Shown one piece after another: positions 18,523 through 58,021 of a stretch of DNA of 64,000 bases. This stretch comes from a virus. Numbering within the stretch: position 1 is the stretch's first letter; every line of letters starts with the position of its first letter. The notes below the pieces were generated by a model that saw only the letters and a list, made by a program, of their open reading frames with translations, was not told the origin of the DNA and ran no database searches. The position numbers and the translations under genes are program-made. Location: positions 62,001-126,000 of IMG/VR virus record IMGVR_UViG_3300041411_000178; one strand, given 5' to 3'.

Positions 18523-20250
18523 ATGAGTACCGAACCTCAAGATCCACTCGAGCAACAATCAGCTGCTCAGGCGCCGGTTACTGCTGCTCCAGCGGCACCG
18601 GCTCCAACGCACCACGATGTGCACACCGCTCAAAACACTACCATGACCAAAGTCCTGCCTCCTGAAGATGAAGTCCTTCGTGACCTCACTCAAGAAGAGC
18701 AGCAGGACGGTGGTTTCCTGACAGTCTTCCTGGGTAACCGTAAAGAAGACGTTGTCAAAGCTCAGAGCATTATCGGGCGCTGGCTGACCTACACCGGTTC
18801 CAAGGCCATGTTCGATGAAGAGCGGCTGCCTGAATCGGTCTTCCGTAAAGCTGAGACTGATTGGCTCGGCTATATCGAAGAGAAGTTCCCGGGCAAGACG
18901 TCTGACCAGGTAGCGACCCATGCGGCCGACCTGTACGCGTTCATGTCGGAGATCCAGGACGAGCTGAAGATTCGTACCTCGATCCTGAACGAGCCGAACA
19001 TCAGCAACACCTTCGACCGTGGTGGCGTCAATACCGGTGACATCGTCGGTAAGCGTCCGTCTGCATCGACCCAGGGTTTCTCGAACCGTGAGAACATGCG
19101 TCGTCGTGCTGCACGTAAAACCGGTTCGGGTGCTGACAAGCTGGCCTTCGATGTACTGTGCCGTGACTCGTTTGCCACGTTCTCCTTCTCGCGTACCAAC
19201 CATACCGAGATGGGCTCGCTGATGAACGACATCCGTCGTACCATCACCGGTTATGTTCAGCAGATCGGTAACAACAGTGCCGTGCTGGCACGTATCGCGT
19301 CGATCCGGGTTATCTGGAACTTCATTGCGAAGCGTATCAACAACACCAGCGTTACTGACGTGGCGGACTTCAACCAGTTGGCCAACGTGATCCTGCTGAC
19401 CGACATGGATACCATCATCACGGCGTTGATCGAATCGACCAACACCAAGGGTATCAACCTGAACCTGCGTTGCTTCTCCGGTAGCTGTGACTGGGAAGCC
19501 TTCAAGCTGGTACAGGCGTCGAAGCTGCTGCGTCAGCGGCACCACATCACCACCCCGGCCGATGAGGCGATCTACGCCAACCTGATCAACGGTCATGCCA
19601 AGTACACCATGGAAGAGACGCGTGCCATGAGCCGTGCTTCGACCTACGGTCTGGAAAGCAACCGTGTGTATAACGACGAGAAGTCGATGTACCTGGAATG
19701 CGCTCCTCCTACTCTGGCCGAAGCTTTCGCTGCGTTTGACTTCTTCATCGGCGAGATCAACCCAGAGCTGGCTGAGCTGCGTACCAAACTCGTAGACCCT
19801 GCTGAGTACCAGACTCAGGTCACGATGGTGCACAACAACCTCGGCTCGACTGAGTTCATCCACTGGGTGCAGCGTCAGGTTGACCTGCCGGCAGAGAACA
19901 CCGATGAAGTTGAAACGGTTTTTGCCCGTAGCGAGATGGACCCGAACGACTTCAACGGCGGTATCCTGGATGTTCTGCGCGACCAGGAAGACCTCAACCG
20001 TAACCTCGTCAAGTTCGTGCTCAACAAGACGCCGTACATGTCGCGTACCTTTATGGGTGTGCGTAACTACGTGTGTCCAAAGTGCCGCAAGAACATGGGT
20101 GATCTGGAAGATCCTGAAAACCTGCTGGATCGGAAGTTGGGTTACACCCCAATTGACCCAGTGATGAGTTTTTTTACCCTCACCCAGTGGTCGATACTCA
20201 AGCAGACGGCCGTCCAAAACAAAATCAGGTCCGAAGCCCTCTCGGAATAA
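18523..20250 (+). CDS. Virion or assembly protein with CxxC motif, zero-frame product
   Basis: The 575-residue zero-frame product starts after AAGGAAGTAGTAC. The first 45 residues are Ala/Pro/Gln-rich and disordered; the rest looks globular and helical. Two cysteine pairs, C317/C322 (CFSGSC) and C518/C521 (CPKC), could form a zinc site. Just before the end, at 20169-20175, the frame crosses T TTT TTT in perfect phase for -1 slippage, and an open -1 frame follows to 20723. Without slippage only 24 more residues are added. Cys-rich tail assembly and hub proteins of myophages are possible relatives, but I cannot assign a family. The gene uses abundant codons like its structural neighbours. Confidence 0.75.
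   Translation: MSTEPQDPLEQQSAAQAPVTAAPAAPAPTHHDVHTAQNTTMTKVLPPEDEVLRDLTQEEQQDGGFLTVFLGNRKEDVVKAQSIIGRWLTYTGSKAMFDEERLPESVFRKAETDWLGYIEEKFPGKTSDQVATHAADLYAFMSEIQDELKIRTSILNEPNISNTFDRGGVNTGDIVGKRPSASTQGFSNRENMRRRAARKTGSGADKLAFDVLCRDSFATFSFSRTNHTEMGSLMNDIRRTITGYVQQIGNNSAVLARIASIRVIWNFIAKRINNTSVTDVADFNQLANVILLTDMDTIITALIESTNTKGINLNLRCFSGSCDWEAFKLVQASKLLRQRHHITTPADEAIYANLINGHAKYTMEETRAMSRASTYGLESNRVYNDEKSMYLECAPPTLAEAFAAFDFFIGEINPELAELRTKLVDPAEYQTQVTMVHNNLGSTEFIHWVQRQVDLPAENTDEVETVFARSEMDPNDFNGGILDVLRDQEDLNRNLVKFVLNKTPYMSRTFMGVRNYVCPKCRKNMGDLEDPENLLDRKLGYTPIDPVMSFFTLTQWSILKQTAVQNKIRSEALSE
20169..20175 (+). promoter_or_regulatory. Candidate -1 ribosomal frameshift site T TTT TTT
   Basis: Codons AGT TTT TTT ACC place the heptamer T TTT TTT in the X XXY YYZ phase used for -1 slippage. 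The -1 frame is open and reads on through TAC CCT CAC CCA GTG. No ribosome site precedes the first possible start (GTG 20187) of the downstream frame, so slippage would be its main route of expression. A homopolymer sequencing error is the alternative. Confidence 0.6.
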
Positions 20251-20723
20251 TCCCCCGGGTCGACAATCGGATTGTCTTCAGTCCTACGTTCAATCAGGTT
20301 AACAACTCGCTTCTAGGGAAGTCCCTTAAAGATGTCACCCCAGAAGCGATGTCGTTTAACGAGTCCATGTTGCATGATTTGAACATGAACTACTACACCC
20401 CGGCTACTATGGATCCGTTCTCTTCAGTTGCTTACATCCCTGCTGAGAACGAGTTCATTCACGAGTGGTCGATCAAGTCTGTCGCTAAGAAGTACGGCTT
20501 CTACAAACTTCATGAGGTCATGTCGTTACGTGACTACATGGAAATGCCGATGTTCCTGATCGACGATTTGATTGCGGGTGTGGGTGAAGGACGTAGTCAG
20601 CGAGACAAGGCGGACAACCCTCCAGATCAGGACGGCAAAAGCAAGATGCCTAATGTGAAGGACAGTAACAAAGACTTGACAGAAATCATGCGACAACTGG
20701 GTTTGGATAAGAAAATGTTTTAA
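20175..20723 (+). CDS. C-terminal extension made by -1 frameshift from the 18523 gene
   Basis: This frame continues from the slippery site and encodes 182 residues, giving a fused product of 733 residues with the first 551 of the upstream gene. An independent start would be GTG at 20187, but it has no ribosome site and lies inside the upstream gene. The segment has a folded middle (YYTPATMDPFSSVAYIPAEN region at about 85 residues in) and a charged, disordered C-terminus rich in Asp, Lys and Asn. Fusion to the upstream protein, or a natural contiguous gene broken by a base-call error, are both compatible. It ends before a hairpin terminator. Confidence 0.65.
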   Translation, partial: YPHPVVDTQADGRPKQNQVRSPLGIIPRVDNRIVFSPTFNQVNNSLLGKSLKDVTPEAMSFNESMLHDLNMNYYTPATMDPFSSVAYIPAENEFIHEWSIKSVAKKYGFYKLHEVMSLRDYMEMPMFLIDDLIAGVGEGRSQRDKADNPPDQDGKSKMPNVKDSNKDLTEIMRQLGLDKKMF

Positions 20724-24621: not shown

Positions 24622-26028
24622 ATGATCTCGATGGATTTTTTGAAACGACCCGTCGGAGGGTTGGAGTTCATTAACTTCCAGTCCACTGACTTCTACCGCA
24701 AGCAGGTGCTGTTCCTTGAAAGTCAGATCGGTCCCGACGGTGTTCTGAGTAAAGAAGCCATCCCAGGCATCAAAACCCTCATCGAAGAGTTCACTGGCTT
24801 TAAGAACGTGGACCTGAAGTTCTCGAGCAGCGGTAACCTGTCGGTTGACACCGGTTACTTCTCGCCTAACCACGTGCTGAACAACGCATTGGTAGACGAC
24901 CTGCTCAAGCCGACCCAGACCACCCTGTACCGCTGGTTTACCCAGAACAAGGACAAGGTGTTCAAAGGCGGTATCGATTACACCACCGGTAAAGTCCTCG
25001 GTAGTTTCCAGACCGTTCCTGTTACCTTTCAGATCAATCCTAATCTGAATGCCACCTTTCCTGCTGAGAAGGTGAAGAAGTTCGGCGTTCCCCTGGCTGG
25101 TATCCTGGCCGGTGCAATTGCCCATGAACTGGGCCATGTGTTCAGTGGCTGCATGATGCTGCTCACAGTCGCTTCTGACAACATCTATCTGAAAGCCTCT
25201 CTACGGTACTACCGTGAAGCCAAAGACGTCTCAGATCGCGTTGTAGTGCTCAAGGACATCGCTTCGCTGCTGGACGTTCCAGCGGCCAAACAGGGTGACC
25301 TGCAAAAGCTTGCACAGGACCAGGACGATAAAACCCTCTTCCTCTACTTCGATAAATTAATCGCCCAACGTAATATGCGACGCAGTTTGTCAGTAGGTGT
25401 GGAATCGATGTCGTCGGAAGTTGTAGCCGACATGTACGCTATCCGCATGGGTTGCGAGAAGGGTATTATCGCTGCTATCAGTATCCTGACTGACCAGGGT
25501 TGCATCCAGACCGTGGTTAACAGCCTGCTGATCGCCGCAGTGACTACCATCATTGCCCTGCCAGGTTTCATCGCCCTCACGGTGTCTATGGGCGTGGCGG
25601 GTGCAATGTTCATGGCCATGATCTTCTACATGTTCATCTTTGTCCTGAATTACTTCAGCAAGGGTTACTCGGGGGTCTACAACGCCGACCATCGTCGTTT
25701 CGAAGATGCGGTGCGTCAGCTGATCCAGAAGCTGAAAGAAGACACCACCATGCCAACCTCTGAAAAGAATGCGTTGGCGGATGAAGTACAGCAACTGTTG
25801 GCTCACGCTAATTGGCTGCGTCCTTGGTACGAGAGTACTGTGATCCACCGCTTCATGGGTTGGGTGTTCAGCCAGGCTGACTTCAAAGCTCAAGAAGTTG
25901 AACACTACACTTCCGTGATTGCCAACCACGAAGTGAACACCATTTCCGTTAAACTGGCGCGTCTTAAAAACCGCCGTGATGGCACGGACACTTCTCCGGA
26001 AGAAACCAACAAAACTTACGAAGCCTAA
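24622..26028 (+). CDS. Membrane zinc metalloprotease (HELGH, M48-like)
   Basis: The 468-residue protein starts after GAGGAGTACAGGTGC. HELGH at residues 168-172 (context AIAHELGHVF) supplies two zinc-binding His and the catalytic Glu. SSEVVADMYAIRMG (E266, D270) fits the third ligand and the ExxxD signature of M48-type peptidases. Two hydrophobic segments at about 300-322 and 324-344 are likely transmembrane helices after the catalytic domain, and the C-terminus is charged. It is followed 24 bases later by a small gene and then an internal head protein gene, so it is expressed with virion components. It may be a structural or injected protease, or may cleave host envelope proteins; the substrate is unknown. 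It is not obviously the prohead protease, which is of a serine type in this group. Confidence 0.8.
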   Translation: MISMDFLKRPVGGLEFINFQSTDFYRKQVLFLESQIGPDGVLSKEAIPGIKTLIEEFTGFKNVDLKFSSSGNLSVDTGYFSPNHVLNNALVDDLLKPTQTTLYRWFTQNKDKVFKGGIDYTTGKVLGSFQTVPVTFQINPNLNATFPAEKVKKFGVPLAGILAGAIAHELGHVFSGCMMLLTVASDNIYLKASLRYYREAKDVSDRVVVLKDIASLLDVPAAKQGDLQKLAQDQDDKTLFLYFDKLIAQRNMRRSLSVGVESMSSEVVADMYAIRMGCEKGIIAAISILTDQGCIQTVVNSLLIAAVTTIIALPGFIALTVSMGVAGAMFMAMIFYMFIFVLNYFSKGYSGVYNADHRRFEDAVRQLIQKLKEDTTMPTSEKNALADEVQQLLAHANWLRPWYESTVIHRFMGWVFSQADFKAQEVEHYTSVIANHEVNTISVKLARLKNRRDGTDTSPEETNKTYEA

Positions 26029-38987: not shown

Positions 38988-39037
38988 CTACTAAGGGCGA
39001 GCAATCGCCCTTAGTAGTCTTATGGCCGCATTTTGTT
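38988..39037 (+). terminator. Hairpin terminator with recurring tail
   Basis: Perfect 13-bp arms (38988-39000 and 39005-39017) enclose a GCAA tetraloop, followed by CTTATGGCCGCATTTTGTTTTTTC. The 36 bases between the stop codon and the arms contain short inverted repeats (CTGTAGCAG). Confidence 0.85.
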
Positions 39038-57944: not shown

Positions 57945-57997
57945 GTAACCTACCGGGGCTACCCGGTAGGTTACGGTCTATTACGCATTTTGTTTTT
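57945..57997 (+). terminator. Hairpin terminator with variant tail
   Basis: Perfect 13-bp arms (57945-57957 and 57962-57974) with loop GCTA, followed by GGTCTATTACGCATTTTGTTTTTTTA. Confidence 0.85.
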
Positions 57998-58021
57998 TTA
58001 AGATACAGCCGGTTTCACGTC

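Follow-up and report, generated by a model that had tools for sequence, protein, structure and literature searches.

The window analysed here, a stretch of 64,000 bases, carries a gene in which a programmed -1 frameshift at the heptamer T TTT TTT is, from its sequence, near certain, and which would provide a short and a long form of one protein. The window spans positions 62001-126000 in a virus record of 224,004 bases. Its genes include those for a multisubunit RNA polymerase, a DNA polymerase of phiKZ type and a major head protein; the source virus is a phiKZ/EL-type jumbo phage. The features of the two reading frames are:

18523..20250, plus strand: 0-frame gene, short form of 575 aa; homologue of phiKZ PHIKZ077, EL ORF047, OBP_093 and RAY gp267; PHROG 4585 (unknown function)
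20169..20175, plus strand: in-phase slippery heptamer T TTT TTT with two Phe codons (F550, F551), as read in the sequence
20176..20250, plus strand: end of the short form in the 0 frame past the slip codons, comprising 24 codons plus stop; predicted to prolong a C-terminal helix, with strongly reduced synonymous variation
20175..20723, plus strand: part of the long form encoded in the -1 frame, with 182 codons (20175-20720) before the stop; PHROG 19747 / 24181; in the annotation, most GenBank relatives show it as a gene of its own

At the T run the codons of ORF 18523-20250 read AGT TTT TTT ACC with F550 and F551 at 20170-20175, and the heptamer has the X XXY YYZ phase of the 0 frame. The first codon after a -1 slip is TAC at 20175 and the stop of the -1 frame lies at 20721-20723, giving a predicted fusion of 551 + 182 = 733 residues. 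Upstream, the -1 frame is closed until 20157, 12 bases before the T run, and GTG 20187 is its sole start-like codon (ATG, GTG, TTG or CTG) ahead of ATG 20349; this GTG is preceded by TTTTTACCCTCACCCA, which holds no Shine-Dalgarno-like run. On all these points the original prediction was accurate: it had named the exact phase of the heptamer, the 182 open codons, the 733-residue fusion alongside a 575-residue short form, and GTG 20187 as the only possible independent start, lacking a ribosome site. Ordinary termination would yield the short form, and in the rarer event tRNA-Phe in both the P and the A site would re-pair one base back on the U run, leading to a long form in which the 182-residue extension takes the place of the 24-residue tail.

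The combination of slip site and long -1 frame exceeds what chance would give. Among 26 window genes examined equally far ahead of their stops, 25 have a -1 frame that stays open for 0-44 codons, compared with 182 codons in the slip-site gene. TTT makes up 25% of the Phe codons in 39 window genes (180/727), and T TTT TTY occurs at 2 of the 33 Phe-Phe pairs in these genes, the slip-site gene counted. Behind two control heptamers that are likewise in phase, TTTTTTG at window position 24636 and TTTTTTC at 39036, the -1 frame closes after 10 and 4 codons, respectively. The window also contains a T9 run (2287-2295) and a T7 run (57993-57999) between long ORFs, possibly terminator or promoter-like.

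Conservation was assessed in a non-redundant set of 36 loci from phiKZ/EL/OBP-type jumbo phages, comprising the window and 35 IMG/VR loci; ten of 45 IMG/VR loci (L043, L047, L049, L050, L054, L058, L065, L070, L080 and L082) were left out as redundant copies, near-copies or truncated. The peptide pattern of the IMG/VR scan had Phe-Phe at its end, which conditions the loci on amino acids and not on codons. The canonical heptamer T TTT TT(T/C/G) is present in 32 of the 36 loci (TTTTTTT in 23, TTTTTTC in 8, TTTTTTG in 1), and the first T is absent from the other four, i.e. a PhiPA3-like locus, two related ones and Noxifer (G TTT TTC). Counting all 46 rows, redundant loci included, 40 have the canonical form and 6 another. 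None of the 21 other Phe-Phe pairs in the genes of the 36 loci is encoded by TTT TTY. In every locus the -1 frame runs on without a stop for 160-183 codons beyond the slip codons, and the short-form stop follows 9-27 codons past the slip. A comparison of homologues for a conserved slip site or a single contiguous gene had been proposed together with the original prediction, and it came out for the former: an uninterrupted single gene was found at 0/36 loci.

The GenBank phages, some of which are also in IMG/VR so that the two sets overlap, gave the same picture. Searches with tblastn retrieved 69 records for the 0-frame protein and 48 for the -1 extension, 209 with a phiKZ-type homologue as query, 235 with a homologue of another type, and 70 and 75 in further searches; the slip site was inspected in 26 GenBank records overall. 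The canonical heptamer is in phase in 13 of 14 records of a first batch, the exception being vB_PQ1, a fragmented record that is unscorable for the heptamer, and in 8 of 9 of a second, the exception being Noxifer with G TTT TTC. By eye, phiKZ, SPFM17 and RAY all have the site (3/3), and across the records it is present in phiKZ (PHIKZ077), EL, OBP and RAY. The SPFM17 homologue (L097, 1865-3832), which is of the Seoulvirus type, is 655 aa long and has ~100 extra N-terminal residues rich in Pro, Ala and Glu. The vB_PQ1 record (L021, PQ516283.1) shows many short CDS from apparent indels and a tandem repeat just upstream of the slip site, and looks poorly assembled.

These data bear on two alternatives to ribosomal slippage. 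A homopolymer is a classic error site and the vB_PQ1 record is broken up near it, as might be cited for a sequencing error or a decayed gene, but the probability of either is negligible because many phages sequenced independently of one another share the site and its phase, down to ~20% protein identity and with TTTTTTC forms included; in-phase conservation across relatives rules out a homopolymer error. Alternatively, the phage RNA polymerase could add a U in the T run, so that ordinary translation of the altered transcript would produce the long form. Many members have seven or eight T in a row, which would suit such transcriptional slippage, but the run comprises six T in the TTTTTTC and A/G-TTTTTT members and five in Noxifer, and six or five T is short for this process. 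Moreover, the slip phase is kept and the last base is variable, as ribosomal slippage predicts, and we regard a transcriptional origin as improbable. Variation of the last heptamer base (T, C or G) fits slippage of the P- and A-site tRNAs on U UUU UUN, and since the loci without the first T, which would depend on the P site alone, retain UUUUC or more behind a non-U base, a shift of the P-site tRNA-Phe may be possible there.

A signal at the slip codons themselves comes from synonymous variation among six close relatives. Synonymous differences per comparable pair amount to 0.33-0.73 at codons 542-547 and to 0 at codons 549-555, and the 13-codon window with the minimum of synonymous variation in the whole 575-codon gene begins at codon 548. 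In the -1 frame the synonymous share is 0.04 in the first 26 codons and 0.32 beyond. A drop that starts at the slip codons is the mark of dual coding in the sequence. The extension has F1, P3 and P5 in 27/27 sequences, without exception.

Translation of a second gene from its own start after the first stop, which would correspond to the GenBank annotation, is hard to reconcile with these observations. The annotated starts mostly lie 9 to 237 bases beyond the first stop, but they vary among relatives, and RAY has the start annotated within the first gene, ahead of the slip. In the window, no ribosome site precedes GTG 20187. Both the conserved -1 residues and the reduced synonymous variation start at the slip codons, and on this ground we reject an independent second gene as very improbable. 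The -1 frameshift, in turn, is strongly supported by the conserved site and phase, the conserved -1 frame, the dual-coding constraint from the slip codons, and the lack of an uninterrupted homologue among those examined, and on this central point the original prediction has held up.

A stimulatory RNA structure, usual at such sites although not obligatory, was not seen downstream: the consensus energy of 19 sequences was -0.15 kcal/mol, with no conserved structure, and the fold z-scores of 9 sequences ranged from -1.07 to +1.18. Slippage is therefore probably modest, like that of lambda G/GT. Lambda-type shifts are likewise described as lacking stimulators in passages of a review (PMC5009743). 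Production of the frameshift product in cells and the rate of shifting are predictions from the sequence.

The protein itself is marked by two conserved Cys pairs:

19471..19488, plus strand: first of the two Cys pairs (C317, C322), both residues unchanged throughout alignments A1 and A3
20074..20085, plus strand: second conserved Cys pair, CPKC (C518, C521), 29 residues before F550; both Cys invariant in A1 and A3, and CPxC invariant also in the phiKZ-type alignment A2

The second is the Cys-pair motif that had been pointed out just before the slip site, and together the two pairs probably form a split four-Cys metal site. Pfam gave no match to the slip-site protein, and its PHROGs are families of unknown function only. 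The GenBank label 'putative ZipA-like cell division protein' carried by some relatives (L020, L028; hits H71, H123) found no support in Pfam.

Taking predicted fold and motifs together, the slip-site protein is probably a large baseplate-hub/tail-assembly chaperone of the T4 gp26/gp51 kind. The AlphaFold2 model of the 0-frame protein, based on 27 sequences, has a pLDDT of 85.0 and a pTM of 0.85. A Foldseek search with it against predicted viral structures (BFVD) returned 17 matches at E<=0.001, the named ones being from jumbo phages or unclassified Myoviridae. Ranks 18-20 are two T4-like baseplate hub assembly proteins (E 0.009 and 0.027) and a baseplate hub assembly chaperone (E 0.053), with probabilities of 1.00, 0.99 and 0.98; these hub-chaperone matches are weak, with E ~0.01 or worse and a TM-score by target of ~0.5. 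T4 gp26 contains the Cys pairs CTC and CPEC and has the C-terminus GLKEFFELL. The jumbo protein and T4 gp26 have in common two Cys pairs and, after these, a Phe-Phe close to the C-terminus, as judged by eye and not by a curated family definition; the idea of gp26 was drawn from this motif ahead of the Foldseek search. Fold, motif and the short/long design are the leads suggesting that the protein works like gp26/gp51.

In T4, gp26 and gp51 both match PF12322 over the whole of the Pfam model, and gp51 continues for ~47 residues further; a MAFFT alignment of the two put the C-terminal parts wrongly and was not used. T4 makes no use of the slip, as the Phe-Phe of gp26 reads TTC TTT and the -1 frame there stops at once. 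According to passages of a review, gp26 and gp51 are listed as hub assembly chaperones, gp51 being absent from the final particle and gp26 being placed in the hub by some studies (PMC3004832).

Sequence comparisons do not link the jumbo protein to this family. PF12322 matched none of the 23 proteins in two alignments and none of 3 consensus sequences, and hhalign of the jumbo profile with the small T4 profiles was not significant, so that we do not file the jumbo protein under PF12322. Widening of the PF12322 profile through bacterial genomes yielded 0/398 with the controls silent too, and one weak locus otherwise. No PF12322 gene was found in the window's own virus record, nor in any of 10 jumbo-type records (EL counted twice), whereas both T4-type controls carry two each. 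Absence of a separate PF12322 gene would be expected if the slip-site gene did the hub-chaperone job, and equally if these phages did without one.

Among solved structures, Foldseek with the 0-frame model gave no PDB match at E<=0.001, and a sequence search none below E 0.19. VIA-align against the PDB aligned mostly residues 72-140 to unrelated helical proteins with Z of 7.1 or less and was uninformative. The extension is modelled poorly (pLDDT 62), and its low-E fold matches are only jumbo-phage or unnamed proteins. By eye it resembles the tail of gp51, a likeness for which hhalign gave no support. DUF5420 was dropped as a candidate for the extension, scoring 16.9 bits against a cut-off of 26.

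The gene might instead encode a structural protein of head or baseplate, with a real frameshift whose long form would be a minor copy with an extra domain at a special position. The KPN8 homologue is labelled putative baseplate protein in GenBank, one fold relative is named baseplate protein, and the gene lies next to those of a virion RNA polymerase subunit and of a virion structural protein. In the phiKZ record, however, PHIKZ079-081 are marked structural and PHIKZ077 is not, which also leaves the 'large virion gene' of the original prediction unsupported. The absent solved-structure match might be held against a structural role as well; however, two other phiKZ proteins are equally matchless, so that it says nothing on virion membership. 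Overall, we consider a structural protein unlikely, yet a reading to be kept in mind. The original prediction had also supposed a use different from that in tail assembly chaperones, which is probably wrong, as fold and motifs point to a hub/tail chaperone, although to a much larger protein.

The surroundings of the two parts were compared as well. In the window the two-part gene is followed on its 3' side by genes of 222 aa and 357 aa of unknown function and then by the DNA polymerase gene, and no tape-measure gene recognisably adjoins it, the place directly upstream of the tape measure being that of lambda-type G/GT. In relatives the 0-frame part and the -1 extension are adjacent, and in most annotated ones the gene of a virion RNA polymerase subunit adjoins; in the EL and OBP types the two-part gene is also near the DNA polymerase gene. 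In BONAISHI (L036, 5571-6634) and sm033 (L037, 5751-6742) two small opposite-strand genes lie directly 3' of the two-part gene, one or both annotated as Clp protease subunits.

If the chaperone reading holds, the short form would, by analogy, be gp26-like and the long form gp51-like, with slippage, and not two genes, setting their ratio. We see about even chances for the broader proposal that phiKZ-like jumbo phages, nucleus-forming ones included, make both hub/tail chaperones from one gene via an unrecognised, group-wide -1 frameshift, T4 gp26 and gp51 being the two-gene form of the same short/long pair. Were this true, it would explain why T4 stands as the stated exception to G-GT frameshifting. 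Should the protein be the hub/tail chaperone, the one-gene frameshift and the two-gene T4 solution to one assembly problem would become directly comparable.

The frameshift is kept from phiKZ to EL, OBP and BONAISHI, so that a single conserved gene has been entered as two hypothetical proteins, while databases and proteome searches lack its long product. Within the open-licence literature, the scope of our search, we found no report of a frameshift in PHIKZ077 or its homologues. Passages of a study of nucleus-forming jumbo phages give 53 of 72 core genes as lacking a predicted function and place EL, OBP and phiKZ among the chimallin-encoding phages (PMC10299810).

Chaperone frameshifts are known in long-tailed phages, with T4 as the named exception, as stated in passages of a review (PMC5009743). 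Like lambda G/GT, the jumbo gene is predicted from its sequence to produce short and long forms with a common N-terminal part by frameshifting. It differs from the lambda type, where the protein is small, in the size of its 0-frame protein (~500-655 aa), in its Phe slip site and four conserved Cys, and in having neither a recognised adjoining tape-measure gene nor a Pfam chaperone-family sequence match. To T4 gp26/gp51 it is linked by the weak Foldseek matches to T4-like hub assembly proteins, and gp51, as the gp26 domain plus a C-terminal extension, parallels the jumbo long form; in T4, however, the two products come from distinct genes, and the jumbo protein has over twice their length. The direct homologues of both parts are PHIKZ077 and PHIKZ076.4 of phiKZ, ORF047 and ORF048 of EL, OBP_093 and 094, and gp267 and gp266 of RAY, which lie at the same place and have the slip site, and which differ in being annotated as two proteins, mostly hypothetical.
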